Source: Paenibacillus riograndensis SBR5
GTDB lineage: Bacteria; Bacillota; Bacilli; Paenibacillales; Paenibacillaceae
Reading direction: 5' to 3'
Length of the DNA: 64,000 nt
Assembly: GCF_000981585.1 (NCBI RefSeq)
Contig: NZ_LN831776.1
Coordinates: 7,321,216-7,385,215 of the forward strand
In this document: piece after piece, positions 2,412 through 55,388 of the stretch
How positions within the stretch are numbered: the stretch's first letter is position 1
How the letters are laid out: the number at the start of each line of letters is the position of its first letter
Program-made: the position numbers and the translations under genes
The notes under the pieces: generated by a model
What the model was told of the DNA's origin: nothing
What the model saw: the letters and a program-made list of their open reading frames with translations, nothing else
Databases searched by the model: none

Positions 2412-2449
2412 AAAAAAGCACACTCCCCCAAATTTGGAGAGTGTGCTTC
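2412..2449 (-). terminator. Intrinsic terminator of the 2483-2914 gene
   Basis: On the minus strand, AAGCACACTCTCC pairs with GGAGTGTGCTT around an AAATTTGG loop and is followed by a T-run. It lies about 35 bases past the stop codon of the small membrane protein gene. Confidence 0.85.
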
Positions 2450-2482
2450 ACCCGTTTCCTGCATTACTTGCATATGATATGA

Positions 2483-2914
2483 TTATTCGCCTCGCTTTGA
2501 TCTGCATCCCTTGCTCCACGGCATCTGCAGAAAAGGCAGCGGAACAGCTTGCCCCGGCTCTCTTAAATCCACTATAATGCCTGGCTGAAGCTTGCGGTCT
2601 GATTCCAAAAAGCCGATAGAAGCAGCCGGGGCAAATTCCAGTGCAGAACCGCCCAGGGCAAGCCGTAAGGCTACATCCATCGTCGCATCACTCGACCCGT
2701 CATCCATTAAGGTTACCCGAAGCCTCTTTCCGCTCAGCAAAGCATGGAAGGTCAGCGCCCGGATATACCACTCCACCACATATTCATGATTACGGGTGAT
2801 CAGAATGTAATGAAGCCGTTTGCCAGACTGGCCCCGCTCCCCTTTGTGCAGAATATGAACCAGCAATACCGCAATAGCATAGATGGCCGCAATCCATATT
2901 AACTGGGCTACCAT
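2483..2914 (-). CDS. Membrane-anchored protein with glycosyltransferase-2-like fragment, unknown function
   Basis: A 143-residue protein with one N-terminal membrane segment (about 3-20). A short stretch follows that resembles the start of a family-2 glycosyltransferase fold: a YILITRNHE strand near 36-44 and VTLMDDGSSDAT near 67-78. The latter is the usual UDP-sugar-binding DDGS motif, but the rest of a catalytic domain (DXD, QXXRW) is missing. It is therefore either a remnant or a small protein using only that fold. The ATG has AGGAGG 9 bases upstream. It sits between degU and comFA, where Bacillus carries the unrelated degV. I do not assign a function. Confidence 0.75.
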   Translation of the reverse strand: MVAQLIWIAAIYAIAVLLVHILHKGERGQSGKRLHYILITRNHEYVVEWYIRALTFHALLSGKRLRVTLMDDGSSDATMDVALRLALGGSALEFAPAASIGFLESDRKLQPGIIVDLREPGQAVPLPFLQMPWSKGCRSKRGE

Positions 2915-3142
2915 GGAGATACACCTCCTCTTATACCGACACTATATGCCGATGATAAAAGGTCGGTGACTGCCCAGAGCAGACCCGCGCCTGCCTTCCT
3001 GCCTCACAATATACGGTTTCATCCATTCAGCCTGTACGTATACAGGGGGCTGCCTTTCATCCTTACAGATACAACAACAATACTCTGACTGCAGCAGGGC
3101 AGCTGCAATCATTATATGTAATATTCAAAAACCAGCGGCGGA

Positions 3143-3865
3143 TTAGAGGGTTACCCACCCATATTTAATCGAATTAATGACAGCCTGCGTACGATCGTCA
3201 ACCTCCATTTTTTGCAGGATGCTGCTAACATGGTTTTTGACGGTTTTTTCGCTGATAAAGAGGTATTCCCCAATCATCTTATTGCTCTTGCCCTCCGCCA
3301 TCAGCCGCAGTACTTCCGCTTCACGCCGGGTCAGGGGATTGTTGTCGCCAGCGACAAATTTGACGCCAGCCTCTTTAACCGCAGTTTCTGCAATAGCTCC
3401 TGTCTCATTGAGGTACGTCATGCGGCGCAGCTGGTTAATCAGCTTCCCGGTGACCTTCGGATGAATGAAGGCATGTCCTTCACAGACAGAACGGATAGCA
3501 TTGATCAGCGATTCCGCCTCCATATCCTTCAGCAGATATCCATTGGCCCCCTTGCGCAGTGTTTCAAACACATAGCTCTCATCATCATGAATCGATAAAA
3601 TGATCACTTTGACATCAGGGAACATTTCCCGCAGCTTTTGCGTGGCTTCCACACCATTTTCAATCGGCATGTTGATATCCATCAGTACGATATCCGGTTT
3701 GTTTTCATTACAGAATTCAAGCACCTGGATACCGTCACCGCATTCCCCAATAACCTCAATATCTTCCTCCATATTTAAAATCCGCTTAAGCCCCTCACGA
3801 AACAACTGATGATCGTCGGCCAAAAGAACTTTGATGGGCGACTTGCCAATACTCTGGTTTTCCAT
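3143..3865 (-). CDS. degU: Response regulator DegU
   Basis: A two-component transcription regulator of the NarL/FixJ class, partner of the DegS kinase just upstream. In Bacillus it controls exoenzymes, motility, biofilm and competence. The receiver domain covers about 11-130 with acidic pocket D17/D18, phospho-acceptor D63 (LMDINMP) and K113. A LuxR-type helix-turn-helix spans about 176-238 ([15 protein letters not shown], then [12 protein letters not shown]). I start at the ATG at 3865, which has AAAGGAG 7 bases upstream; an in-frame start 9 codons earlier lacks one. The 240-residue length is close to the 229 of B. subtilis DegU. Only 4 bases separate it from degS, so the two are almost certainly cotranscribed. 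Confidence 0.95.
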
Positions 3866-3869
3866 CACA

Positions 3870-5042
3870 TTACTCCTTTCCTTTTTCCACATTCGTCGGA
3901 ATGTGAATTACGATTGTTGTGCCTTGATTCTCGGCTGACAGGATCTCCATTCTTCCTTCGAGCAGTTCCACGCGTTCCCGCATGCCGACCAGCCCAAAGC
4001 TTTCGCGGTTTGCCTGTTCACTGGTTTTTTTCACATTGAAGCCTAATCCGTTATCCTTCACAACAATCTTGATCAGCTGGGCCTGATAGGTGATTTCCAC
4101 CAATACGTAACTTGGAAAAGCATGCTTGGCCGCATTCGACAACGCCTCCTGCACCAGACGGTATACCGCTGCCTCCATGGCAGATGACAGCCTGTGCTCC
4201 TTGCCCCTTGTTTCAAAAGAGGTTCGGATTTTCGTCTTTTCCTCGTAATCATGCACGTATTTTCGAAGTGTCGGAATTAGTCCTAAATCGTCGAGCGCCA
4301 TCGGGCGCAGATTAAAGATCACCTTCCGCATTTCCTCCAGGCTGTACCTTACCTGCCCTTTCAAGTCTAGTACTTCGTCCTGTACCAACCCAAATTCCTG
4401 CTTTACCAGCATTCTTTCTACAATTTCCGTCCTTAGGACTAGATTCGCCAGCATTTGAGCAGGACCGTCATGAATTTCCCGGGCAATTCTCTTCCGTTCC
4501 TCTTCCTGAGCCAGGATTATTTTTAGTCCGATCATCTGTCTGTTTTTCGCAGATTCGACAATTCTAGTCACTTGTCCTAGTTCTCCGGACAGATATTCCA
4601 AAACAACGCTCATTTGCGAACCGATGGATTCAGCACGCTCTACCGAATTTTCGACACTGCGGACACGCATCTGCAGTTCATCGCGCCTGCTCCGAAGATA
4701 GACCTCCCGCTCCCTGGTCATCATGAGCTCAAGCTGAAGTTCTGTTGCTTTCTCATAAGCGACCCGGATATCCTTCTCGGAGTAGCGGACAAAATCCCGG
4801 CTGACCTCTGTCAGCCGGATCCGGGAGCGGTGGTACTGAAGCTCCAGCTTGTCTACCTTTTGCAATGTTTCATCCGTTTCTTCCATAACCCGCTGCAGTT
4901 CTTTGGTGAGTGCAACAAGCTCATCCCGTGCAACCTGCAATATTTCAAATATCTGATACTTGCTGCTCTCCATCACGTCGATGGTATTCTTAATAACGCG
5001 ATCTATCGCATCGGCTTGAAATTCCACGGATGCTTGCCCCAT
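3870..5042 (-). CDS. degS: Sensor histidine kinase DegS
   Basis: A cytoplasmic histidine kinase that phosphorylates DegU. A long N-terminal coiled-coil sensor region (about 25-165) is followed by the HisKA_3 dimerisation/phospho-acceptor segment EERKRIAREIHDGPAQ with H191. The ATPase domain has an N-box (EALSNAAKHAF, N303) and DNGLGF near 330. No membrane segment is present, as in Bacillus DegS. The chosen ATG has only a weak ribosome site; a GTG five codons in is possible. The length of 390 matches the family. It is the first gene of the degS-degU pair. Confidence 0.95.
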   Translation of the reverse strand: MGQASVEFQADAIDRVIKNTIDVMESSKYQIFEILQVARDELVALTKELQRVMEETDETLQKVDKLELQYHRSRIRLTEVSRDFVRYSEKDIRVAYEKATELQLELMMTREREVYLRSRRDELQMRVRSVENSVERAESIGSQMSVVLEYLSGELGQVTRIVESAKNRQMIGLKIILAQEEERKRIAREIHDGPAQMLANLVLRTEIVERMLVKQEFGLVQDEVLDLKGQVRYSLEEMRKVIFNLRPMALDDLGLIPTLRKYVHDYEEKTKIRTSFETRGKEHRLSSAMEAAVYRLVQEALSNAAKHAFPSYVLVEITYQAQLIKIVVKDNGLGFNVKKTSEQANRESFGLVGMRERVELLEGRMEILSAENQGTTIVIHIPTNVEKGKE

Positions 5043-5085
5043 TTCTATCGGATCGTATTAAAGGCTTTCCTTCAATATTACCATA

Positions 5086-7815
5086 TCACGATTCGATAGT
5101 TACGGTCTTCGTTTTCTGTTCCCATTTTACGGTTAATCCCAGCTGTTCCGAGACTAATCTTAGCGGTACTAAAGTCCTGCCCTGTAGGATTAAAGGCGCT
5201 ACTTCAGCAGTTTGTCGTTTACCATTCAGTACAAATTCCTTTTTGTTAACCGTCAGGTCAAGCGCCTTGGCGCCACGGAGCACCATAATTTTCTTGGTGT
5301 TTTTATCCCATGCCGCACTGCCGCCAAAGGCATCCAACACCACTTTAATCGGCACATAGGTGCTTGCATCTTTGACAATCGGAGCCACATCGATCGCCTT
5401 CTTTGCACCGTTGACCGTTATGGACTTGGAGCCGATGCTCATTGCAGCGGTTCCCTTCGGAAGTCCGGCTTCACTGGAGAGCGAAGGCATTACGAACGAT
5501 ATATTGTCAAAAGCAACCGTACCTGTCTTGGCCCGCTCATCCTGGCCTTCTTCCACATTGACCACATACAGGCGCTTCAGCGCTGCCGGGAATTTGATGC
5601 CGGAGCCTGACAGATCAATATTTAGGCTCTTCCAGCCGTTCCAATCGATTACTTTGGCCAGATCGATATAGGATATTTTTCCGCTTCCGTCTACCACCTC
5701 AGCCCGAAGCCAGTTAAGACTCATATCCCCCATCACATCAAGCGACATGGAGGTTGCCGCAGCAGGAATGTTTTTGCCGCTGGTTCCATTAAGCTGGGCA
5801 TAAGCGTACATCTTACCGCTGCCGGCTGTCATATCATAGCTGAGTGACAGCACTTTGGAGCCAGCCTTCTCTGCGCTGCCAGCCACCACTCCAGCTGTTC
5901 CGGTCACACCGTTAACATTGGATGTAAATGCAATAGGATAGCTTACGTTTTCGAAATTCTCCCATGGGGTGGACGCTGCTGCTGATAGTACAACTGCAGT
6001 GCTGAATCCGTCATAACGGGCGATAGCATAACCTGTCGTCACTCCAGGGTCTACCGAATCAACCGTCAATTTGCCGTCCTGAACACTGCCTTTAAAGCCA
6101 ACAAGCTCCCATTTCAAGGATGCAGGCGGAACGGTAAGCGAGGCTCCATTTTCTGCTAAGGCTGTCACCGGCACTGATACTGATGCTCCGGGGGTGAGCG
6201 GCGCTGTAGCTGTCCCCACCGTCAGGCTGGATAAATTCTCACCACCCAGTACCGTTACCTCGGTCGAGGCGCTGGCTGCGCCGCTGGCAGCCTTTATTGT
6301 CGCTGTACCGGCTTTGACTGCAGTGGCTTCCCCGCCATTTACAGTTACACTGCCGTTGCTTGCAGTCCAGGAAGGGTTGCCTGCTGCTACATCAATTGGA
6401 TTGTAGTAAGTATCATAACCTTTTAAAGAGTACGTTGCCTTTTGCCCGATCAGCAGTACTGTGCTGCCGCTAATCTTGATCCCTTTCACTTCCCCCTTGG
6501 GAGCCGAGGTATAGACACCCAGGCCATTGACGATACTGCGCTGTTCTGTGCCGTATTCAGTATTGAAGGTAAGTGTGGCAGAGGTTTCAGCAAGCGGGCG
6601 GTCTACCATCGTTGTAGAGCCGCCTCCATCCAGATTCATTCCTTTCCAGACACCGATGTTCGCCATGAAGTTTTGCAGCTCTGTCAGCGACATGCCGGCG
6701 CTGTTGGCATTATCCTCCACTGCGACCACGTACACATACTGTCCACTCTGCGAATAACCCAGTGCTGTACGGGCACGAAAGCCGCCGATACTGGAAGTCG
6801 AACGGGAAAAAGACGTCGCCTTTCCATCGTTCACCAGAATGGTATGCCCTCCGATCATCATCTGCAGGCTGGCCGGATCAAGCTCCTGCTGCGTGGATTT
6901 GGACTTCAGGGTGTAGACACTGCTGAGCTTTTGCCCTACAGCGAGGTGATTTTTCACAAACTGCGCCCCAAGCCCGTGTGTCCGCAAGATGTAGGCTCCT
7001 TTGGGAACAGCCATGGACAAGGCCTTATCTGCTGAAATCTGGGTAATGATATCATTCTCTACAAGCACCTCTGTCGGAGTAGTGGAGCTGTTCTTAGGAC
7101 GCTCCAGCGCAGTCCAGGCATCTGTATAGATGTAAGCGGTATTAGCATGACTATACGTTGAACTCCCGTCCTCGGGGCTGTATGCCCCCTTATTGATGCC
7201 TGCCAGCGGAAACTGCGCTCCGTCCTCAGCAGTAAGCAGCCCCTCGAACGAATACTGGTCGATTACGGGCTTGCGGTCCTTGGTCACAGCAAAAGCATAC
7301 ATTCCGTTGAGCTGCGAAGGTGTAGATACTACAACCCCGCCGGATACCTGTCCCCCGATAGGGGCACCTTCACCGCCTGTATTGAAATAGTCGCCGTTTA
7401 CCGCGGCTACCGCTCCGGTCTCCGCAGCCATGCCTCCGGTGCTTTGCCGTGTAGTTAATTTGCCGCCTTTGCCGGTCATTACATCTAGGGATACGTAAGG
7501 ATTATTTAGATCTACGCGGATCACATCTGCCAGACCGGTCGCCTTTTTTCCGGAACGGACCGTTGTGAATTTATACTTCATCATAATAGCCCCTGAGGTA
7601 ATAACCTCTTCACCCAGCTTGGTTACGTTCAGGGAGGAGGCTGCTTGGGCAACCGAGGTCGGTCCCGAAGCCCATTGCGGCAGCCCCTCACTGCCCAGGA
7701 CAGGCATGATCCACAACACGCCGGCTAATGAGGCAGCAATCCATTTTTTAGCCGGCAGCTTATTCATTCCCCGTAACTGCTCTTCTTTTTTCTTCCCCAT
7801 GAAAACTTCATTCAT
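5086..7815 (-). CDS. Secreted phosphodiester-glycosidase-domain protein with Ig-like and copper-amine-oxidase-N-like stalk domains
   Basis: A 909-residue exported protein. An N-terminal signal/anchor segment lies at about 26-45. A domain of the phosphodiester glycosidase (NAGPA/DUF2233) type covers about 90-430, with AAVNGDYFNTGG near 135 and MNLDGGGSTTMV near 395, the latter being the conserved active-site-like loop. A Ig-like (Big_2) domain follows at about 445-525, then a carbohydrate-binding-like beta region at about 630-780. Two copper-amine-oxidase-N type repeats end the protein (from about 795), a stalk module common in Paenibacillus cell-surface proteins. The family removes or trims sugar phosphodiester linkages; a wall or polysaccharide substrate is my inference. 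The start is the first ATG after GGGAGAG. The gene stands alone upstream of degSU. Confidence 0.85.
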   Translation of the reverse strand: MNEVFMGKKKEEQLRGMNKLPAKKWIAASLAGVLWIMPVLGSEGLPQWASGPTSVAQAASSLNVTKLGEEVITSGAIMMKYKFTTVRSGKKATGLADVIRVDLNNPYVSLDVMTGKGGKLTTRQSTGGMAAETGAVAAVNGDYFNTGGEGAPIGGQVSGGVVVSTPSQLNGMYAFAVTKDRKPVIDQYSFEGLLTAEDGAQFPLAGINKGAYSPEDGSSTYSHANTAYIYTDAWTALERPKNSSTTPTEVLVENDIITQISADKALSMAVPKGAYILRTHGLGAQFVKNHLAVGQKLSSVYTLKSKSTQQELDPASLQMMIGGHTILVNDGKATSFSRSTSSIGGFRARTALGYSQSGQYVYVVAVEDNANSAGMSLTELQNFMANIGVWKGMNLDGGGSTTMVDRPLAETSATLTFNTEYGTEQRSIVNGLGVYTSAPKGEVKGIKISGSTVLLIGQKATYSLKGYDTYYNPIDVAAGNPSWTASNGSVTVNGGEATAVKAGTATIKAASGAASASTEVTVLGGENLSSLTVGTATAPLTPGASVSVPVTALAENGASLTVPPASLKWELVGFKGSVQDGKLTVDSVDPGVTTGYAIARYDGFSTAVVLSAAASTPWENFENVSYPIAFTSNVNGVTGTAGVVAGSAEKAGSKVLSLSYDMTAGSGKMYAYAQLNGTSGKNIPAAATSMSLDVMGDMSLNWLRAEVVDGSGKISYIDLAKVIDWNGWKSLNIDLSGSGIKFPAALKRLYVVNVEEGQDERAKTGTVAFDNISFVMPSLSSEAGLPKGTAAMSIGSKSITVNGAKKAIDVAPIVKDASTYVPIKVVLDAFGGSAAWDKNTKKIMVLRGAKALDLTVNKKEFVLNGKRQTAEVAPLILQGRTLVPLRLVSEQLGLTVKWEQKTKTVTIES

Positions 7816-7985
7816 TTCAACGTAACTCTCCCATCTCTATTTTCAAATTTATGCGTCTTTCAGAGGCTGGAAACACGTTCCTAGTTTCCTGCTATACCTT
7901 TAATAGACTGATTTTGAGAGGAAAAGTTGCGAATATTACTAGACTCGGTCCAATTTGGCAGCTGGGTGAAAGGGTTCCCGGCATG

Positions 7986-8013
7986 CAAAGAGGCCCCGTA
8001 TCCACGGAGCCTC
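7986..8013 (-). terminator. Probable terminator of the 8031-12056 gene
   Basis: On the minus strand, GAGGCTCCG and CGGGGCCTC pair around a TGGATA loop and are followed by only three T residues. The short T-run makes this a weak call. It begins about 18 bases after the stop. Confidence 0.55.
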
Positions 8014-8030
8014 AGTACAACATGATTTTC

Positions 8031-11000
8031 TTATAAATATCCGGCCATGGTAAGCATCCGCTGCAGCATAACTGCAGCTTGGGCACGTGTGGCATTCCCC
8101 TGGGGCTGGAATTCAGTGGTTGTCATACCCAAGATAATTCCTTGCTGCACAGCCTTCGCCACAAATTCGGCAGCCTGGTTCTGAATCTTGGAGCGGTCCT
8201 TAAATGCTACCAATGCGGTAGCAGAGGTTCCATTTAGGGTTATTGGACGTCCGGTGTACTCCATAGCCCGGATAATCATAATCGCCAGCTGCTCGCGGGT
8301 GATATTATCATTGGGGCGGAATGTTGCATCCGTATTTCCGGTAATAATCCCCGCTTTGGCGGCCGCACCAATATAATCACCGGTTTGTGTGGAAGGCTGC
8401 ACATCTCTGAACCGCTGGGCCGTCTCGCGGCTCCCTAACAGTCCCAGCCCACGGCTCAGCATGACCGCAAATTCTGCACGGGTAATCTTCTGCTCAGGCT
8501 TGAAGGTGCTGCCATAGCTGCTGTCGATTATATTTTTGGCGGCAAGCTGGGATACAATAGCTTTGCTCCAATGGGTATTCATATCTGTAAAGCTCCGGGT
8601 CGAGAGGAATGTGCCCACGACCTGGTTGCCTATAGTACTGGCTGTAATCACCGTATAACTGCCAGCCGAACTCAGCTTGGTAGGGAGATAAGCGGCATCA
8701 TAATAGGCAAGATCCAGCCGGGCCGCCGAAGCCTGGTCACTATTCAGCGTAGCTGTCGTACGGACCGCGTATTCTGCGGGTACGCTCAACGCGGTAGTGT
8801 TGGCATAATTGCTGCTCACCGCAGCGCTCAAGCGGATATCCATGAGTCCAGTGACGGTCTGAAGCCCCTGTGACTGGAGCTTTTGCTCGAACGGTGTAAA
8901 GGTTCCCGCAGGGACTTTTTCCAGCCGCAGCACAAGCGAAATGTTATTGCTGTCCGCAATCAAAGTCGCGGCAAGGCTGTTCATATTCACATCATTCAGC
9001 GCGAGACGGTATAAATGGTCGCCATGACGCAGAAGAAAAGCAGCCTTACTGTCACGGTTGACTGCATCCAGCAGCGGCTTGAGCGGCACGCTCACATAAG
9101 CTGACAAATCAGTTGAAGGCACCTCAAATGCTAATGCAGAAGTACCTTGTTTGTATACATAATCATAGCTGGCAGCCAGGCGTTCAGCGGTCAGGTTATA
9201 TCTTTTTACAGATTGGCTGTATACTGAACGGTCATCTGCTGCTGTAGCGGAATCCGTTTTGAGCAGAGGATATTCTTTTCCAAACTCACTTGCTGCCAGC
9301 GTTCCCAGATATGATGGACGGCCTGCTGTTGAGGAATTCCCTGCCACCCCCGTCATATTCTGCACCGACAGCGCGGTGAAGGAAGTTAAAAGATTCCCGT
9401 TCTGATCCGAGATTGTCCCTGAACCTGACATGTAGGATAAATCAACCGTTTGACCGCTCTTCACAACACTGGATAACGTCAATTTAAGCGTACTGCCGGA
9501 GATGTAGTAGGATTGTATACCAACCGTGCTGCCGTCAAATCTGACTCCAAATTGATTGGCGTTCAGCCCTGAAGAAGCTTGCATGGTTTTGTTGAATGTC
9601 ACCAGCAGTTCGTCGCCCGTTATTGTTGCTGAACTGATATCTGAAACCGTGGTTCCCGAAATGTTCACGGACTGCTGATTCAAATAGGGAGCGCGGTTAC
9701 CGTTAAGATCGGCGATCCCCGTAGTCCCCGGTACATATGAAACTGTAGTCGGCTGATTAACCGCCAGCGCACTCTGGAGCGTCAAGGTGACTTGAGTGCC
9801 GCCTGCGGCTACTGCCGTAACGTAGTTAGGTTTACTGCCTACCAGGACGGAAAATTGGCTGTTCATTGGAAGACTGCCTGAGGATATTCCCTCGTTATAC
9901 GTCAGTACAATTTTGTTGCCGGAACCGGCCGCACTCTGAAACACCGGTGGCACATTATCACCACTGTTGCGGATATAAAAATCACTGAAATTTGCTACAC
10001 TCTGCCCATTCGTATCCGCTACGGGATAAGAACCCGCAGAATAAGATACACGGATAACCTGCGCGTTCGTTGCAGCGTTGTCTAAACTTAAATTCAACTT
10101 TGCACCACTCGATGATATTGCATTTGTCCCAAGAGAATAACCATCTGCATAGACGCTGAACTGGCTGTAGGCATTGGGATTGACTGCTTGCAGAGTATCA
10201 TTAAAATTCAGCAATACGGTTTTCCCGGTAAGCGTCCCGTCCTTTATAGTAGTCAGTGCGGACTGGACTCCATTCGTTACCTGATACTGTGAGAAGGTAC
10301 TGGCATTATTCCCGCTTAAATCCTGAATGGGGCGCAGCCCGCCTGAATAGCTGACTTTGATAACCTGGCCAACAGTAATCCCTGTACTCAATTTGATATA
10401 AATACTGTCTCCCTGGATAGAAATACTATCAATCGCGCGCTTCTCATCATTAACAGTAACTGCAAAGCTGGAGGGCAGCAGCGCTGCCTCCGTTTTCAGC
10501 GCCTCGTCATAAATCAGACGGATCGTGCGGTTATTATCCACCAGGGCCGTCTTGAGCACGGGAGCAGTCTTGTCCAGAGAATAGGTCTGGAAGCTCCAGG
10601 CATTTTTGCCGCTTAGTCCACCGTAGATCACTTGGCTGTTATTGGCATCCACAAAAGCGCCATTCGCAATATCCAAGTAGTACGTCGTATTATTATCAAA
10701 CGCTGCAGCGGGAGTTACGATGAACTCTTTGGCTGAGGAACCCACTGAGAGGGTTGATTCCAGCTTCGTTCCATCGCCTTTATACAGAATTACCGGACCA
10801 GCCACCGCATTATTAAGAACAACATTCCGGTTAAAGGTAATTTTGATCGGCGGATTTAGACTTACCGATTCGCTGCGGTCTGCCGGAGAAAGGGCCTCGA
10901 TGCCAAACCCCTTGACTTCACTTGTTGTATAACTCCATGTAAGCGGACCTGAAGCCGGGAACAAGTTTCCATCCTGGTCATGAAAGGCTCCTTGCGGCAC

Positions 11001-47372: not shown

Positions 47373-48002
47373 TCATTTGGTTCCATACAGCCGGTCTCCG
47401 GCATCTCCAAGCCCGGGCACGATATATCCGTGCTCATTCAGATGATCATCCAGCGCAGCAACATAGATATCTACATCCGGGTGGGCAGCTTGTACAGCGG
47501 CAACGCCTTCCGGAGCGGCAATCAGGTTCATCATCTTGATCTGGGTGCATCCGCGGTTCTTCAGCGAGGTAATCGCAGCAATGGCAGAGCCGCCTGTAGC
47601 CAGCATCGGGTCAATCACAATCAATTCGCGTTCCTGGACATCCGTAGGGAGCTTGATATAATATTCGACCGGCTGAAGGGTTTCCGGATCACGGAACAGT
47701 CCGACATGCCCTACCTTGGCTGCAGGAAGCAGCTTCAGCACGCCTTCAAGCATCCCCAGTCCCGCACGCAGAATCGGAATCAGACCCAGCATTCTTCCGG
47801 AAATCACTTTGCTCTGTGTCTCTGCTACCGGTGTCTGAACGGTGATAGTCTCCAGCGGGATATCCCGCGTAATCTCATATGCCATAAGTGTAGCGACTTC
47901 ATCAACATGCTCTCTGAACTCTTTCGTATTCGTCCGCACGTCGCGAATAAATGTTAATTTGTGCTGAATCAAAGGATGATCGCAAATCACCAATTTTCCC
48001 AT
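47373..48002 (-). CDS. upp: Uracil phosphoribosyltransferase
   Basis: Salvages uracil to UMP using phosphoribosyl pyrophosphate. 209 residues, exactly as in B. subtilis. The PRPP-binding loop [16 protein letters not shown] lies near 127-142, and the uracil-site motif [18 protein letters not shown] ends the protein. The ATG follows GGAGGG. glyA, normally the next gene upstream, is here separated from it by the peptide gene cluster. Confidence 0.97.
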
Positions 48003-48081
48003 TCTTGTCCCTCCGGTAATTGTAAGTCTTATCTATAGCCGCAGAAAGCGCTTTTGCTTCTCCTATGGCTAAATCCTGTCT

Positions 48082-48090
48082 ATTATATCA
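48082..48090 (-). promoter_or_regulatory. Extended -10 promoter of upp
   Basis: On the minus strand, TGATATAAT (a TG one base before a perfect TATAAT) ends about 80 bases before the upp start. The -35 region is poor, in keeping with an extended -10 type. Confidence 0.5.
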
Positions 48091-48094
48091 TCCT

Positions 48095-48500
48095 TAGAGA
48101 TGCATTTCATCCAGCGAAATATACATGCTATCAGAAATATATCTGTGAATAGTTAAATATGCTTAATAAAAAAGTCAAAGTTTTCATTGTTTTTTCTTCA
48201 CTTTCATGAAATTCACATTTTTTTCACTATTTTTATCGAAAATTCCATGAACAATATGTAAATTCCTCAGAATGAATCAGTTTAATTACACTCCTTTTCT
48301 GTGAACATTTATTTAACAATTTAATGAGATATCCATTTTTCCTGAACCTCTTTTTTAGTTAAATTATTTGTATACGTCTAGGCTTTACTTTTGTGCTCAA
48401 TTATAAACTTGGGAATAACATTCTTAATATCCGGATTACATTCTCCATTACAACGTTTTTGTAAGATAAAACTTCTTAAAAAGAATATCATAGTTGACAA
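48095..48500. other. AT-rich intergenic stretch between upp promoter and peptide cluster
   Basis: I see no open frame with a ribosome site on either strand, no tRNA and no clear riboswitch. The sequence is strongly AT-rich. It contains a small near-palindromic TTCATGAAATTCACATT segment at about 48200-48225, of uncertain meaning. It forms the downstream border of the peptide gene cluster. Confidence 0.5.
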
Positions 48501-48502
48501 AT

Positions 48503-48535
48503 TGAAAAGGGCTAACCAGCAACCCGGTTAACCCC
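48503..48535 (-). terminator. Intrinsic terminator of the CXXX-peptide cluster
   Basis: On the minus strand, GGGTTAACC and GGTTAGCCC pair (one U-G) around GGGTTGCT, followed by TTTTCAATTTG. It lies about 70 bases past the precursor stop and closes the cluster. Confidence 0.75.
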
Positions 48536-48604
48536 TGATATCAATATCCTTAGAGCATTTTTATTCAAACTACTTGTGAATACTTGCAATGAATAATTTC
48601 TAAA

Positions 48605-48769
48605 CTACCATATTACTTTCCCGCTACAATTTGTTAAACAACCAATACTACAGGACCAATTGCAGTTCGTATTGCAGCCACCTACGCAACTTCCCCATGT
48701 ACAAGTTCCGCATGCATATCCCTGCACATCGCTTCTTGAGTTACTTGTTTTAGAAAACAAATGACGCAT
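48605..48769 (-). CDS. CXXX-repeat RiPP precursor peptide
   Basis: A 54-residue peptide gene below normal gene-finding size. The first 19 residues (MRHLFSKTSNSRSDVQGYA) form a polar leader without cysteine. The rest is the core, with eight Cys at 20, 23, 28, 32, 36, 40, 44 and 48. From C28 to C48 they fall exactly every fourth residue, with Gly, Asn, Thr, Ser and Trp between. AGGAGG lies 9 bases before the ATG, the best ribosome site in the cluster, and the gene ends at TAG just before a terminator. It lies downstream of the accessory and maturase genes. Its cysteines are the obvious target for thioether (ranthipeptide or sactipeptide) formation; the exact linkage cannot be read from DNA. Alternatively it is a metal-binding peptide, but the maturase neighbours argue for modification. 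Confidence 0.85.
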   Translation of the reverse strand: MRHLFSKTSNSRSDVQGYACGTCTWGSCVGGCNTNCNWSCSIGCLTNCSGKVIW

Positions 48770-48846
48770 TCTCTCTCACCTCCTTTTTAAAGTTTTGCTG
48801 AAGGATTGGTGATCAATGGATTTGATTCCACCTCTAGAACAATCAT

Positions 48847-49143
48847 TTATTCAACTTTGATCAAAAAAATCTCATTTGTATTAAAATCTATTTTCCAACT
48901 TCCGTTTGCAGATGATTTCCAAGTATACTTACGAGCCTTCTCACTCCACCAGTGTTCAAGTTTAACCGTTGTTTTTCCTAAGTCAGCTACAATTTTTTCA
49001 TATATTAATTCTATTTCTGCAATATCATTATTCAAACAAGGTAAAGAGGAAAACAATTCTTGAAGAGCAGTCTTTCTTTCATACAGATTCAATATTTCAT
49101 CTTTTTCCTGCTCTGAAACTATACCTACTTTTTCATTAGACAT
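48847..49143 (-). CDS. Small accessory protein of the CXXX-repeat peptide system
   Basis: A 98-residue soluble protein. A helical first half (KDEILNLYERKTALQELF near 12-29) is followed by YEKIVADLGKT near 47-57. An aromatic C-terminal block contains LEHWWSEKARKYTW and SWKIDFNTNEIFL. This pattern recalls the protein named CXXX repeat peptide modification system protein in database families. A role in binding the precursor leader, like the RRE proteins of other RiPPs, is inference. The ATG at 49143 follows GGGAG and overlaps the maturase stop by 8 bases, so translation is coupled. One Cys only. Confidence 0.75.
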   Translation of the reverse strand: MSNEKVGIVSEQEKDEILNLYERKTALQELFSSLPCLNNDIAEIELIYEKIVADLGKTTVKLEHWWSEKARKYTWKSSANGSWKIDFNTNEIFLIKVE

Positions 49144-51307
49144 TAATTTCACTCCCTTTTAATTTGGTATTATTTCTCTTAGAAAGTATTAATTCAAGCG
49201 GATCAACATAGTTAACTTTCTCAAAGTTGTTGTGTACAATAAATCCATTTTCATTCATCATCAGCTTGAGTTTATGAGAATTATTACGTTCAATGTGGCT
49301 AATCGTGCATTGAACCTTTGACGGTATATTAATTTGGGAGGTTAGTTTTTTATTTAAATATTTACATCTGCTGCAATGATAGGCATCGCATGAGTTGCAG
49401 ATAGGTGATTTTTCAACACTCAGCATTTCTTTATCTTTTATATCTATCCCTATTGTAAGATCACCTATAAAATTTTTCTCATTTTCAAAGTAAAATGCAG
49501 GACAAGTATAAAACTTCCCGTTAGGTGCAAGAGTAAAGGTGTGTTCCCCTGCATCACAATTAGACATTTTATCTAGATGCAATATGTCGGTGAGCACGTT
49601 TAATTCTAATGGTTCCCCGATTCTAGAATAGCTTGAAAGTAAAAATTCAGATAATTTTTGCAATTCATTATCATAACTATCCAAATCTTGTTGACTCCAT
49701 TGTTCTAGATCAGAAATAACCAGGTTTACTCTAGAGAATTTGAGATTTATTTTCACTATTAACTGAGTTAATTCACTTATCTCATTTTTACTTATAATGA
49801 GAATACAATTTTTGCTCTTGGCAGGAATGATCATATCCAACTGTTTAACACTATGATCAAATACTATAATTGAATTTTCTGGATTTTCAGAATTATAGCT
49901 CCCCCCAACTCTTAAAGCACTCCTATTCGACTTGCTAGACGGGATTTCACCTACTAAAACCGGGATCAAATTATTTCTTTCACAGAACTCCAACCCTGCA
50001 AAATAAATATCCTCTTCCATATAGGTGACTTCTTTATTATTCTCTGGTACTAAACAATTGAATGAAGCGTCTGTTGAGAGAATAATTTGAAGATAATTCT
50101 GCCTAGTATTATGTAATCTTCCTTTTTTTCTATCTACAGTCATACCAGTTTTTTCTTCAAATCTACTCCAAAAATAATCATTAGCACGACAATTTGCTTT
50201 GTGCATCTCACAATTAAATGTAGTTCTTTTAAATATAGTCCCTGAATCAGCTACATCGTAATTGTTCCCAACACACCAGGAGCAGCCACTAGCAACACTG
50301 CACTCAATACATTCCTTTGGACTTTGATTTCTTATTGTCAGGACTTCAAAGGGTCTCAATTTATCCCGGTTAAATCCCGAATATATATCTCCAACTGAAT
50401 AACCTTCTCTATTATTCAATGAATAATCAACAAATCTTAGGCAGGGATAGAGCTTTCCTTGATAGTCTATTGCAACCATATTCCCAGTACCGCAATAAGT
50501 AGAATTTAGATCTTCTTCGGTAAAGGGCAACCCAAACGATCCTTTTTGAAAGAACCTAATTTTATGATCTATCCAAAGATCATTTTCTAAAATGTAATCA
50601 GCTAATTTCTTCAATTGGTCTTCAAAAATCAATTCGTCTCCTTCATGCCAAACATCCTCATAAATAATGTTGGCAGATACATCTTTAATTCCTAAATTCC
50701 ACAGACTTATTACACTGTCCATTAAATAGGGAATGTCTTCATGGGAATATGTTGCTTTGGTATGTGTATTCGGAAATTGTTCTTGCCATAAGGGTACATT
50801 TTTCACAACTAAATCATACGATCCTCTTCCATCTGGAAATATTCGCTGCAGATCATGTTTTTTTTGGTTTCCATCAACGCTTATTCCAATACTTACTTTA
50901 TGACGATTTTTTTTAATAAAATTTTGTACTTTTTGAGTTCCATAATATATTCCATTTGATGAGAAGCTAAATCTATAATTTCCAAACCAGGGATGTTCTA
51001 AGGTAAACATTTGAACCTTAATGTAATCACAAATCCTATCAATAAGATCGATCTCAAGAAATGGCTCTCCACCTATAAATTCCCATATTACGGCATCATG
51101 GTTAAAACCTTCCGAGTTTCTTAATATAAAATCAACCGCGTCACGAGCAACTTCAAAGCTCATTTTATTGGTTGTATTTTTTCCAACAATATAACAATAT
51201 TTGCAGGCGAGATTACAATCTTCAGTAATACAAAAAGTTACTACCTGGGCCTCACTATCTCTCCAATCCTTTGTAAACTCGCCCATTTGATATGGAATAA
51301 CAGCCAT
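49136..51307 (-). CDS. Radical-SAM peptide maturase fused to a second cysteine-rich maturase domain
   Basis: A 723-residue enzyme with two halves. The N-terminal half (1-about 390) has the radical-SAM motif CNLACKYC (C31, C35, C38), GGEPF near 80, and a C-terminal SPASM-like cysteine set: STYCGTGN, GKLYPCLRF, KECIECSVASGCSWC and FNCEMHKANC (about 270-380). The C-terminal half (about 400-723) has its own cysteine set: SNCDAGEHTFTLAPNGKFYTCP, then SPICNSCDAYHCSRCKYLN, then SKVQCTISHIERN. This resembles the separate CXXX repeat peptide maturase protein, so here two usually separate proteins appear joined; the names come from memory of the families. The start is one of two adjacent ATGs after GGAGG; I use the second (8-base spacing). 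It is AT-rich, unlike its flanks, and predicted to form thioether bonds on the precursor. Confidence 0.85.
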   Translation of the reverse strand: MAVIPYQMGEFTKDWRDSEAQVVTFCITEDCNLACKYCYIVGKNTTNKMSFEVARDAVDFILRNSEGFNHDAVIWEFIGGEPFLEIDLIDRICDYIKVQMFTLEHPWFGNYRFSFSSNGIYYGTQKVQNFIKKNRHKVSIGISVDGNQKKHDLQRIFPDGRGSYDLVVKNVPLWQEQFPNTHTKATYSHEDIPYLMDSVISLWNLGIKDVSANIIYEDVWHEGDELIFEDQLKKLADYILENDLWIDHKIRFFQKGSFGLPFTEEDLNSTYCGTGNMVAIDYQGKLYPCLRFVDYSLNNREGYSVGDIYSGFNRDKLRPFEVLTIRNQSPKECIECSVASGCSWCVGNNYDVADSGTIFKRTTFNCEMHKANCRANDYFWSRFEEKTGMTVDRKKGRLHNTRQNYLQIILSTDASFNCLVPENNKEVTYMEEDIYFAGLEFCERNNLIPVLVGEIPSSKSNRSALRVGGSYNSENPENSIIVFDHSVKQLDMIIPAKSKNCILIISKNEISELTQLIVKINLKFSRVNLVISDLEQWSQQDLDSYDNELQKLSEFLLSSYSRIGEPLELNVLTDILHLDKMSNCDAGEHTFTLAPNGKFYTCPAFYFENEKNFIGDLTIGIDIKDKEMLSVEKSPICNSCDAYHCSRCKYLNKKLTSQINIPSKVQCTISHIERNNSHKLKLMMNENGFIVHNNFEKVNYVDPLELILSKRNNTKLKGSEINV

Positions 51308-51326
51308 CATGAGTACCTCCATTTGT

Positions 51327-52031
51327 TTAAATATTTATTTTTCTTTTCAATAAAACACCTATATTTCTAGCCTCACCCCCCCTTTCACTTTTTATTTTCG
51401 CTATTTGACCCGTTATATATGCTGCTGCCATACTTGTTCCTCTATAATTTTCGTAGTTGTCTATGTATTTTATATTGGGAATATCCATAACATTATTCGA
51501 AGCAATAAAATACCCTTCTCTGAAATCATATTGATTGCAATTAATATCTCCATCTCCCTTTACAGAAACAACATCTTTAAAGTTCGAAGGAAAAGATATC
51601 TTTCCCGTATTTGAGGCCGCAGAAACTATTATTATTCCATTTTTACAGGCTCTTCTAATTAAAATTTTTAAAGGTAAGTAATACTTCAATTTACTTGTTC
51701 CTAAGCTCATATGAATAATGTCAGGATTTTCTTCAATTGCATGTTTTAAAGCCGATATTAGGATTCGACCGTCCGATTTTAAATCTTTGTCAAGTATGTT
51801 GTGACTATTAAATCTCACACTTTCATGGATATGCCTTATTGCAATTGCTATAATCGTTCCATGGTCATTTGAACAGTTAGCCGCACACTTGAAATCCACA
51901 TGACCTTTTTCATCAATCCAATAATTGAAGGATGAAGCCACATAACAGTTAAGAGCTAGTTTACTCACATCAATTCCGCTATCAATTATTGATATATGGA
52001 TATTTTGGCGATCGTTATCGGAAGTGACCAT
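51327..52031 (-). CDS. Cytoplasmic subtilisin-family (S8) serine protease, probable leader peptidase
   Basis: A compact 234-residue S8 protease. The catalytic triad is visible: D17 in ISIIDSGID, H57 in NDHGTIIA and S200 in RGTSMAAAYITG, with the oxyanion Asn in SAASNTG (N141). There is no signal peptide, prodomain or membrane segment, so it should act inside the cell. In RiPP clusters such proteases often remove the leader, and the exporter next door lacks a peptidase domain, so leader cleavage is the likely job. The ATG at 52031 has AGGAGG 9 bases upstream. The maturase starts 19 bases after its stop. Confidence 0.85.
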   Translation of the reverse strand: MVTSDNDRQNIHISIIDSGIDVSKLALNCYVASSFNYWIDEKGHVDFKCAANCSNDHGTIIAIAIRHIHESVRFNSHNILDKDLKSDGRILISALKHAIEENPDIIHMSLGTSKLKYYLPLKILIRRACKNGIIIVSAASNTGKISFPSNFKDVVSVKGDGDINCNQYDFREGYFIASNNVMDIPNIKYIDNYENYRGTSMAAAYITGQIAKIKSERGGEARNIGVLLKRKINI

Positions 52032-52049
52032 AAACAACAACCTCCTAAC

Positions 52050-53759
52050 TTAAACATACCTCGCATTAACTAAATTAATTTCATCTTCTTTAGACTCAAT
52101 TATTTCTCCATTGTTAATGTAGAAAATATGATCAGCATTGTGTAAATTCGAATAATTGTGAGTTATTACAATTACCGTGTGTTCTCTCGAAAGATTAAGC
52201 ATTATCTCATTAATAAATTGTTGCGATTCTCTATCTAAAGAAGAGGTAGGTTCATCAAATAATAGTATTTTAGATTTTTTCAAAAGTGCCCTTGCAACCG
52301 CAAGTCTCTGTCTCTGTCCCCCCGATAAATTGGAACCTCCGTCCCCAATAACTGTCGAATACCCCTCGGGAAGTGTAATGATAAAATCATGAATATGCGC
52401 TTGTGCACAAATCATATATACATCCTCTAACGAAGCGTCTGCATTTACCAATAACAAATTATTTAATATGGTGTCATTAAAAAAAAATGAATCTTGCGCT
52501 ACTATTGATATCCCCTCACCAATTGTTAATACACTGAGATCATCTATATTAATATCATCGATTTCTATAAGCCCAGAGGATGGTTGATAGAATCGAAGGA
52601 GCAAATTTAAAAAGGTTGTTTTACCTCCCCCACTTGGTCCAATAATCACATTCATACTATTAGGATATATTTCAACATTTATATTTTTAAACACAGGAGT
52701 TCTTATATCATAGGCAAAGCTCACATTTATGAATTTCACCCTTCCCGTCAAGATTTTATGTATGTCACCTGATGTTTCTTCTTTTAAGTCAAAATTTTCT
52801 TGCAAATGTAATATGCGTTGAATAGATACTGCCATTTGCTGCAAACTCGAGTTTAATCCCATTATTTCCATTACAGAAGATGTGAATTGAGAGGAATAAT
52901 TATTAAAAGCTAGAAAAAATGCAATATTAAGCGTTTTATATTTTAATACAAATAAAGATCCTGCAAGAATAATTGCTACTTGCGTGCAAAACATAAAGAA
53001 TTGAGAAATATTCTGAGACAACGCTGAATAGTTTCGGGTCGTAATACTTTTCTTTTTTAGAATATTTAAAATGTTATTAAACTCAAGCTTTCTAACTTCT
53101 TGAATGTTTAGACCTTTAATGGTCTTGATTCCTGTGAATGACTCTTGTATATGAGAAAAGAACTTGTCCTTCAAAACCGATATCGCCATCATCTGTTTCC
53201 TCATAAGTTTGCCTGAAAAGAAAAACAACCCGATTGAAAAAGGAACTAAAGTTAAAGTAACCAGCGTCAACTCAATATGTAAATAAAACATTATAACTAT
53301 AACAGTCAAAAATTTTAAAATGTTCACTAATAATAAAGTGAACTTGTTGATTACAATATCCGCTACAGCTTCAGGATCATATTGTAACCTCGATATCAAT
53401 TCACCTGCCGGGGTATCATCAAATGCCTTCATAGGTAATCCCATAAGTTTGTGATACATTTCACTTTTCAAGTCGAAGGTAATTTCTTCACTTAAATGCG
53501 AAGCCAATAACGATTGTACATAGTTAACCAATGCTTGCAGAAAGTAAAATCCAACCATAAAAGCGCAATATTTATATACTTCTATGAATTCACTTTTAAA
53601 TATAGAGACTATAGTATTAGCCCAAATCAAAGGTTGAACTAGATTTAAAATAACTGAAACTATAACCAGAACTAAATTCAAAGAATAAGTTGTTTGGTGT
53701 TTTTTTATATATTTGGAAGTTTTTTTAAAAGCAGTCGCAAAATTGCTTATTTTATTCAT
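52050..53759 (-). CDS. ABC exporter (fused membrane and ATPase) of the peptide cluster
   Basis: A 569-residue half-transporter. An ABC-B type membrane domain (about 1-325, five or six helices) is followed by the ATPase domain (about 335-569). The latter has Walker A IIGPSGGGKTT, the Q-loop, the signature NLSGGQRQRLAVARAL and Walker B ILLFDEPTSSLD. No C39 peptidase domain precedes the membrane domain, unlike bacteriocin PCAT exporters. The start is ATG 53759 with AAAGGAG 6 bases upstream. It is the first gene of the cluster. Expected role: export of the finished peptide, or immunity; which one is not shown. Confidence 0.88.
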   Translation of the reverse strand: MNKISNFATAFKKTSKYIKKHQTTYSLNLVLVIVSVILNLVQPLIWANTIVSIFKSEFIEVYKYCAFMVGFYFLQALVNYVQSLLASHLSEEITFDLKSEMYHKLMGLPMKAFDDTPAGELISRLQYDPEAVADIVINKFTLLLVNILKFLTVIVIMFYLHIELTLVTLTLVPFSIGLFFFSGKLMRKQMMAISVLKDKFFSHIQESFTGIKTIKGLNIQEVRKLEFNNILNILKKKSITTRNYSALSQNISQFFMFCTQVAIILAGSLFVLKYKTLNIAFFLAFNNYSSQFTSSVMEIMGLNSSLQQMAVSIQRILHLQENFDLKEETSGDIHKILTGRVKFINVSFAYDIRTPVFKNINVEIYPNSMNVIIGPSGGGKTTFLNLLLRFYQPSSGLIEIDDINIDDLSVLTIGEGISIVAQDSFFFNDTILNNLLLVNADASLEDVYMICAQAHIHDFIITLPEGYSTVIGDGGSNLSGGQRQRLAVARALLKKSKILLFDEPTSSLDRESQQFINEIMLNLSREHTVIVITHNYSNLHNADHIFYINNGEIIESKEDEINLVNARYV

Positions 53760-53906
53760 CTTCCACTCCTTTATAATTAATGTCTTATAATCTAACAATA
53801 TCCTTATTCACCCACTTTGTCCACATCAAGTTTTGTAATATAGTTACATTTGTGTGAATATTTAATTTTTTCTTAGTATTTATTACAAAACAATAATTAA
53901 CATAAA

Positions 53907-53957
53907 TAAAAAACCTCACCAATTACTGATTACTTCAATAATCGGTAATTGGTGAGG
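53907..53957 (-). terminator. Long intrinsic terminator of glyA
   Basis: On the minus strand, CCTCACCAATTAC pairs with GTAATTGGTGAGG; the stem extends through CGATTA/TAATCA with one mismatch and is followed by TTTTTTATTTATG. It insulates the peptide cluster from glyA transcription. Confidence 0.93.
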
Positions 53958-54048
53958 AACCTACATGTAATTATTTATTTTTTCCAAGCTTCGTAAAGGA
54001 AATATTGTACCGATACTGTGTTCATACACAACAGTTAGCTTGATCCAA

Positions 54049-55296
54049 TCAGTATTGCAGGCCCGGATAGATCGGATACTGCTCAGTAAGTGCGGCTACT
54101 TCACGGGCAGCCTCGGCGAGTTTGCCTTCATCTTTAGGGTTCTTCAATACGCTGGCGATGATGCGGCCGATGGTTACCATCGCCTGCTCGTTCATTCCAC
54201 GCGAAGTGACTGCAGGTGTACCGATGCGGATACCGCTCGTTACAAACGGGCTCGTTGGATCAAACGGAATAGCATTCTTGTTCACCGTAATGCCGATTGA
54301 ATCAAGGACCTTCTCCGCATCTTTGCCTGTAATATTCAAGTTACGGGTATCGAGCAGCATCAAATGGTTGTCCGTACCGCCGGATACAATGTTGACTCCT
54401 TCGCCGATCAGAGTTTCTGCCAGCACCTTGGCGTTCTTCACTACATTTTCGGCATAGGTTCTGAAAGAAGGCTGAAGAGCTTCACCAAAGGAAACGGCTT
54501 TGGACGCAATCACATGCATCAGCGGTCCGCCCTGCGAGCCGGGGAATACGGCCTTGTCAATCGCCGCCGCCCAAGGCTGTCTGCAGAGAATCATACCTCC
54601 GCGGGGGCCGCGCAGCGTTTTGTGTGTGGTTGTAGTAACAAAATGGGCATGCGGTACAGGGCTCGGATGAAGGCCTGCAGCGACCAGTCCGGCGATATGG
54701 GCCATATCCACCATGAACAACGCGCCTACATCGTTCGCAATCGAACCGAGGGCTTCAAAATCAATTGTACGCGGATACGCGCTTGCTCCTGCTACGATCA
54801 GCTTAGGACGGTGTTTGAAGGCTGCCTTGCGCACTTCATCATAATCAATCAGGAACGTATCCTCCTGCACGCCATAAGCCACAAAATTATACAGCAATCC
54901 GGAAGCATTCACCGGGCTGCCGTGCGTCAGATGGCCGCCATGCGCCAGGTTCATTCCGAGGACAGTGTCGCCAGGATTCAGCGCGGCAAGATAAACCGCC
55001 ATATTGGCCTGGGCACCGGAGTGCGGCTGCACATTGGCATGATCTGCACCGAAGAGCTGCTTGGCGCGGTCACGGGCCAGATTCTCCACGATATCCACAT
55101 CTTCACAACCGCCATAATACCGTTTGCCGGGATACCCTTCGGCATACTTGTTCGTAAGCACAGAACCCATCGCTTCCATTACAGCTTCGCTGACGATATT
55201 CTCCGAGGCAATAAGCTCAATATTGGCACGCTGACGGCTCAGCTCCAGTCCCATCGCTTCCAGTACTGCCGGGTCACTCTTACGCAATTGTTCCAT
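54049..55296 (-). CDS. glyA: Serine hydroxymethyltransferase
   Basis: Converts serine and tetrahydrofolate to glycine and methylene-tetrahydrofolate, a main one-carbon source. The 415 residues match the family. The PLP-binding lysine is K226 in [24 protein letters not shown] near 54-63 and HGGHLTHGS near 119 are also present. The ATG at 55296 follows GGGAGG by 11 bases. The long open extension upstream has no ribosome site. In Bacillus it is followed by upp; here the peptide cluster intervenes. Confidence 0.97.
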
Positions 55297-55388
55297 GATT
55301 CTTATTTCCTCCCTAGTGCTCTTTAGTTTATGTTGCCTGTGTGAAGATGAACTATAATCACAGCATTCCGTCAACTAACTTTGTTTCC

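Follow-up and report, generated by a model that had tools for sequence, protein, structure and literature searches.

We analysed a window of 64,000 nucleotides from Paenibacillus riograndensis SBR5 (contig NZ_LN831776.1, positions 7,321,216 to 7,385,215; coordinates below are those of the window), in which a compact operon lies between upp and glyA. From 48605 to 53759 the minus strand holds five intact open reading frames (ORFs), encoding an ATP-binding cassette (ABC) exporter, an S8 protease, a radical S-adenosylmethionine (SAM) maturase, an accessory protein and a Cys-rich precursor peptide, with gaps of 18, 16, -8 and 77 nt in gene order. By its family profiles, the cluster belongs to the CXXX-repeat peptide system of NCBIfam, which is of a named but uncharacterised kind, and we consider it likely that the cassette is a horizontally acquired, complete operon for a ribosomally synthesised and post-translationally modified peptide (RiPP) of this system. 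The first-pass annotation had described five genes on one strand with short gaps or overlaps, a position between upp and glyA and a terminator at the operon end. The gene arrangement and both flanks could be confirmed, and the terminator corresponds to a hairpin with a folding z of -5.0, though the terminator pattern scan as a whole was near chance (6 found against 4.4 expected). Since the promoter scan was likewise no better than chance (30 found against 29.1 expected), the promoter of the operon is to be regarded as a candidate only.

The family labels of the first-pass annotation, together with the opposite outcome of no CXXX-type similarity, were put to profile searches, in which all four families scored above their cut-offs. 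The maturase reached 545.9 bits with TIGR04115 (cut-off 350) and 261 bits with TIGR04119 (cut-off 150), the accessory protein, scanned from an upstream GTG at 49152, 82.9 bits with TIGR04116 (cut-off 50) and the precursor 42.4 bits with TIGR04118 (cut-off 35); the precursor stayed under two other CXXX models, TIGR04114 (17.1, cut-off 20) and TIGR04117 (10.8, cut-off 50). Pfam added Radical_SAM, SPASM, Peptidase_S8, ABC_membrane and ABC_tran domains across the operon proteins. Precursor, accessory protein and both maturase domains thus pass curated cut-offs, and clostridial genomes contain comparable sets of genes; the novelty here lies in the occurrence and the insertion site only. A literature search, which left most subscription journals outside, found no paper on 'CXXX repeat' or on TIGR04114-04116, TIGR04118 and TIGR04119. 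The second Cys-rich domain, already noted as fused to the maturase, is C-terminal (about residues 400-712) and has the look of a degenerate SPASM-type domain. Eight of its Cys are kept by all 21 fused homologs and by all 11 separate C-halves that were aligned. When the two maturase halves were compared as profiles, the match was weak (E 0.0011, probability 19.8), the cysteines nonetheless being in register. Ten radical-SAM/SPASM-type Cys are invariant in all 21 aligned fused maturases.

Table 1. Features of the operon and its flanks (window coordinates).
Feature	Position	Strand	Evidence or remark
ABC exporter (membrane and ATPase)	52050-53759	-	PF00664, PF00005
S8 (subtilisin-like) protease, QhpE-like, candidate leader peptidase	51327-52031	-	Pfam Peptidase_S8, 62.1 bits
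Radical SAM/SPASM maturase with fused second degenerate SPASM-like domain, 724 aa	49136-51310	-	TIGR04115 and TIGR04119
Accessory, 'CXXX repeat peptide modification system protein'	48847-49143	-	TIGR04116, 82.9 bits; ATG with ribosome-binding site
Precursor peptide, 54 aa	48605-48769	-	TIGR04118, 42.4 bits; ribosome-binding site aaggaggtg
Terminator-like hairpin 3' of precursor gene	48507-48536	-	Folding against shuffles, z -5.0
Terminator-like hairpin between glyA and operon	53916-53948	-	Folding against shuffles, z -6.6
Possible operon promoter TGGACA-17-TATTGT	53795-53823	-	Promoter pattern scan
Approximate extent of inserted DNA, upp upstream region to glyA end	48253-54046	.	blastn to relatives and GC content
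glyA	54049-55374		Flank of operon
upp	47373-48002		Flank of operon
Gene starts were chosen by ribosome-binding sites and coordinates refined accordingly.

The precursor carries Cys at positions 20, 23, 28, 32, 36, 40, 44 and 48 of its 54 residues. The Cys at every fourth residue from C28 to C48, pointed out in the first-pass annotation, was seen again as a run of six, which arose in 11 of 200,000 shuffles of residues 20-54; we therefore rejected a chance origin of the spacing. A leader of about residues 1-18, ending DVQGY and common to the precursors of relatives, precedes a core which starts at residue 19 or 20 and contains all eight Cys. At E 0.1 the precursor matched only itself in its own genome. 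Residues 20-54 contain no Asp or Glu and PapB-type acid acceptors are therefore excluded in the core, so that Cys-Asp bridges of this type were rejected for this peptide. Throughout the CX3 units of three groups (56, 68 and 1572 units), Gly occupies X2 in 34-36% and one of Ser, Thr and Gly occupies X3 in 60-70%; Asp and Glu together account for 5-12% per position. This composition argues against acid acceptors family-wide but points to no one acceptor. Non-acid thioether acceptors have been published, namely Thr in SCIFF and Asn in NxxcA (PMC8326336, in excerpt).

Comparison with relatives locates the operon as an insertion into the glyA-upp gap. GC content is 27-37% inside the cassette (about 32% in the operon) against about 50% in the flanks. 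Of 29 relative loci, 23 have glyA adjoining upp, with 253-1014 bp between the two genes where the window has 6046 bp; in the other six (L129, L131, L149-L152) glyA falls outside the short locus. When 14 of the 23 were compared by blastn, 13 showed homology to the window stopping at 48090-48252, and 13 showed it restarting at 54045-54074. The operon is single-copy, and among 100 genomes of the genus its own was the only one to exceed the TIGR04119 cut-off (counting itself, 24 of the 100 gave any match at E 0.001); among 398 genomes of a phylum sample it alone matched at 1e-25. Low GC content and single occurrence in the genus sample would also suit a silent or decaying acquired island from which no product is made. 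We regard this as very improbable, because the frames are intact, ribosome-binding sites and tight spacing are present, hairpins lie at both ends and every conserved maturase Cys is retained; intact frames, conserved Cys and ribosome-binding sites likewise led us to disfavour a decayed cluster. The nearest relative (L124, upp 100% identical) has the longest of the 23 measured glyA-upp gaps, 1014 bp, which may contain another insert. Upstream of upp, 22 nt of the window (48070-48091) are identical in three relatives (L137-L139) and are perhaps a regulatory element.

Searching viral and genome contigs with single sequences returned no relatives, which were found once an alignment was used as query. 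The best 80 of 401 relatives in genome contigs were kept. Two loci were added to give the 82 studied, one from an Anaerococcus plasmid (L033) and one on a fragment of faecal origin that is filed as phage and whose maturase the tree places with Bacteroidales (L036). A tree built on the radical-SAM half, with 83 rows, puts the window into a clade of nine (95/96) with L044-L047, L049, L118, L048 and L054, mostly clostridial and with an S8 gene of the same kind in most members; the branch of the window is long and its exact placement unsure. Homologous clusters, which the first-pass annotation had suggested looking for, are thus available: six loci (L044, L045, L046, L047, L049 and L118) hold all five gene types, with the window-type S8 gene near those for ABC protein, maturase, accessory protein and precursor in varied order, the ABC gene of L044 lying about 6 kb off on the opposite strand. 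L047 is filed as a Bacteroidales metagenome-assembled genome, possibly a binning error. L048, from Clostridium akagii, carries its maturase in two frames (3776-5800) with no S8 gene found in the locus; this copy looks broken, and its label 'split_Tat' in the tree stems solely from the two-frame maturase.

The maturase is mostly fused in Clostridia, and in Bacteroidota loci its radical-SAM and TIGR04119-type halves are separate, often adjoining tatA/tatC-like genes of twin-arginine translocation (Tat); across the ORFs in all 82 loci we counted 46 tatA and 44 tatC matches. Pseudo radical-SAM proteins are mentioned for Bacteroidales clusters in an excerpt of PMC10352776. Outside two Firmicutes groups that were set apart, 59 of 66 loci have a candidate precursor, and an RR-x-F/L type motif is found in 95 of the 100 candidate precursors, in 57 of the 66 loci. 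It should be noted that the precursor filter of five Cys gave no candidate in seven of the 82 loci (L033, L053, L102, L114, L116, L119 and L123), L033 having a four-Cys precursor that was dropped by it. CXXX clusters beside tatA/tatC-like genes with twin-arginine-type precursors are seen in L036 and in Bacteroidota loci such as L053, L055 and L061, often with several candidate precursors (eight in L085). Tat export of a folded protein would fit cross-linking ahead of export.

The nearest fold to the maturase is that of the thioether-forming SCIFF maturase CteB (PDB 5wgg, 5why), the fold-search matches mostly covering residues 17-383. With the SCIFF/CteB model TIGR03974 the maturase scored 135.9 bits, under the cut-off of 425. 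The match begins at CteB residue 93, and the N-terminal part of CteB, a leader-binding RiPP recognition element (RRE), is without counterpart in the maturase. Because this N-terminal domain is missing and an accessory-like ORF is present nearly throughout, in all of the 82 loci except L054, L071 and L094 (the latter two stopping shortly after the maturase), we infer leader or repeat binding as the role of the accessory protein. Its AlphaFold2 model (101-aa form, pLDDT 94.8) predicts the order beta-alpha-alpha-beta-beta, with one strand, two long helices and two strands; in fold searches with this model no PDB chain stood out from generic helical hairpins and no clear RRE-type winged-helix match appeared. 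A further known system is PapB/freyrasin from Paenibacillus polymyxa, likewise a radical SAM/SPASM maturase working on a Cys-repeat peptide, from which the present maturase differs by its extra SPASM-like domain and the core by its lack of acid acceptors; the PapB model NF047865 gave 225.5 bits, under the cut-off of 340. PapB chemistry places the Cys thiol on the auxiliary cluster AC1 (PMC10470005, in excerpt).

For processing and export, the closest functional parallel is maturation of quinohemoprotein amine dehydrogenase (QHNDH), in which thioether formation by the radical-SAM enzyme QhpD is followed by leader cleavage by QhpE and by ABC export through QhpF, with QhpE cutting off a 28-residue leader in the cytoplasm (PMC7876137, in excerpt). 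The division of labour is equal, comprising a thioether radical-SAM enzyme, a cytoplasmic subtilisin-like leader peptidase and an ABC exporter, and no evident signal sequence was found on the S8 protease by eye. However, the substrate is another one, the protease lies under the QhpE cut-off (model NF049966, 108.8 bits against 165) and the exporter is not specially related to candidate QhpF proteins, so that the resemblance is functional. The exporter is closest to the ABC protein of the CXXX locus L047 (419 bits), followed by that of L186, another radical-SAM cluster in this genome (415-416 bits, 38% identity). The QhpF candidates of Paracoccus and Pseudomonas were named from gene position only; with the former as query the window exporter came last among the matches listed (78 bits), and with the latter it was not among the matches listed. 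A descent of the export half from the QHNDH operon was rejected, since the exporter is not specially close to these candidates. A C39 peptidase domain was absent from the Pfam scan of the exporter, and TIGR01193 (C39 bacteriocin exporter) gave 244.5 bits, under its cut-off of 523.85. In the last 12 leader residues, a motif [VT]x[GA]Y is found in six of seven precursors of S8-bearing clusters, the exception being L044, which has the S8 gene and a leader ending DVIAH. In other Firmicutes loci it is found in 1 of 12 precursors (L048, counted with the set lacking S8) and elsewhere in 0 of 100; L054, of the same clade as the window, has neither motif nor S8 gene, and one inspected QhpC leader did not contain the motif. 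We propose that the leader would be cleaved at this [VT]x[GA]Y boundary.

Taken together, we propose a model in which the maturase would bind the leader, perhaps with the TIGR04116 protein replacing the missing N-terminal leader-binding domain. Its SAM cluster would generate a 5'-deoxyadenosyl radical that abstracts hydrogen from an acceptor between the cysteines, presumably Thr, Asn, Ser or Gly and not an acid, whereupon a thiol held on an auxiliary cluster could attack the acceptor, giving several thioethers. The extra SPASM-like domain with its eight invariant Cys may hold thiols or relay the electron freed per turnover, allowing many rounds on one peptide. The QhpE-like S8 protease would then take off the leader near DVxGY in the cytosol, and the ABC protein would carry the mature peptide out. 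The sequence-level foundation of this interpretation is formed by gene content, family membership, the conserved cofactor-type cysteines and the insertion. The thioether product is a prediction, for which the loss of 2 Da per Cys named in the first-pass annotation is an upper bound. Several points weigh against the proposed reading. The core lacks the Asp/Glu acceptors that PapB and QhpD use, the S8 protease does not reach the QhpE cut-off (108.8 against 165) and the exporter is not specially near candidate QhpF proteins (78 bits with one query). In addition, L048 has the boundary motif with no S8 gene detected, and all seven S8 loci lie in one clade of nine, so that the association of motif and S8 gene may reflect shared ancestry; the motif itself was picked after the sequences had been seen.

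The same composition of the core, without Asp/Glu and with mostly small X residues (Gly 34-36% at X2), would also suit a maturase that made another modification, such as epimerisation or only one or two bridges, leaving most Cys free for metal or disulfides in a metal-binding product. One characterised SCIFF has six Cys but a single identified thioether (PMC8326336, in excerpt), and the top Cys-rich ORF beside phage maturases, the weak one of L219 left out, holds 22-126 Cys. We nevertheless judge such a product unlikely, since the nearest fold, CteB, is a thioether former and all ten SAM/SPASM-type Cys are retained; moreover, the six bridges of freyrasin show that many bridges are possible (PMC8326336, in excerpt). 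A thioether-bridged peptide therefore remains our preferred reading. The compact, intact, single-precursor system makes the chemistry of this database-only family directly testable by co-expression.

The larger surprise lies in the related modules, which in Bacteroidota accompany proteins predicted to be exported by Tat and in phages accompany giant Cys-rich proteins. Maturase relatives occur in 42 loci of viral contigs (L187-L228), with a long maturase ORF called in 38 (30 distinct by their first 200 residues), and a pattern search found a Cys-rich CX3 ORF within 7 kb of the maturase relative in all 42; that of L219 is weak (36 aa), and without it the top ORF carries 22-126 Cys. Three phage maturases were scanned with TIGR04115, two scoring above the cut-off (514.5 and 482.8) and one under it (300.6). 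A profile comparison (E 3.5e-5, probability 71.8, 16 sequences) makes a relationship to TIGR04116 probable for a small protein encoded near the phage maturase; an NCBIfam scan of four such proteins named no family, the TIGR04116-type profile matches ORFs in only 7 of the 42 loci at E 1, and a TIGR04119-type half occurs in one (L213). Tail proteins are among the neighbours in L040 and L043. Of 12 further phage loci picked, 10 were scanned, with a tail match in three and none in seven. Examples of modules with a giant Cys-rich CX3 protein, a TIGR04116-like protein and a maturase are L040:6305-9275, L043:3037-7212 and L037:4475-7278, and the giant protein is possibly a radical-SAM-modified structural protein. 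The L043 maturase (4825-7212, 795 aa), whose middle matches parts of unrelated enzymes able to host inteins, looks intein-bearing, and the long ORFs of L214 (821 aa) and L218 (1181 aa) may be similar cases.

These relatives also bear on the idea of a classical bacteriocin aimed at close relatives, which would agree with the patchy distribution (1 of 100 genus genomes above the cut-off), the ABC exporter, the small size and the presence in this genome of another radical-SAM cluster, whose precursor is named 'CLI_3235 family bacteriocin'. We hold this to be rather unlikely: the five operon genes include no separate immunity gene, 'bacteriocin' in the CLI_3235 family name is a label and not a test, and the predicted Tat-exported and phage proteins among the relatives favour structural or signalling use. 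As a tentative generalisation, for which we claim less than even confidence, CXXX-repeat maturation may be a general route to rigid, multiply cross-linked, exported Cys scaffolds that are not mainly antibiotic. One and the same module of precursor, accessory protein and maturase would have three outlets, namely small peptides with ABC protein and S8 protease, larger proteins with TatA/TatC in Bacteroidota and giant phage proteins (22-126 Cys) as particle parts, with the bacterial maturase carrying or pairing with a second, SAM-less SPASM-like domain. The sharper question is then why bacteria and phages both keep Cys-rich repeat proteins beside a dedicated radical-SAM enzyme.

The second radical-SAM RiPP cluster of the genome (L186, G000:C1:6170000-6182000, 2448-8867) comprises a CLI_3235 precursor, CcpM, TIGR04066, a TIGR04069-like protein (69.6 bits, cut-off 70), an S8 protease and an ABC protein. 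It resembles the present operon in its radical-SAM enzyme, QhpE-like S8 protease (82 bits), related ABC protein and leader end TVEAY, and differs in its maturase family (TIGR04068), its TIGR04066 and TIGR04069-like proteins and its Cys, which lack regular spacing by four. The plasmid of the Anaerococcus locus (NC_013164.1, 1-10342) was typed as conjugative; its CXXX maturase has class III lanthipeptide genes as neighbours and is accompanied by a 56-aa precursor-like ORF with four Cys at spacing four and a short accessory-like ORF.

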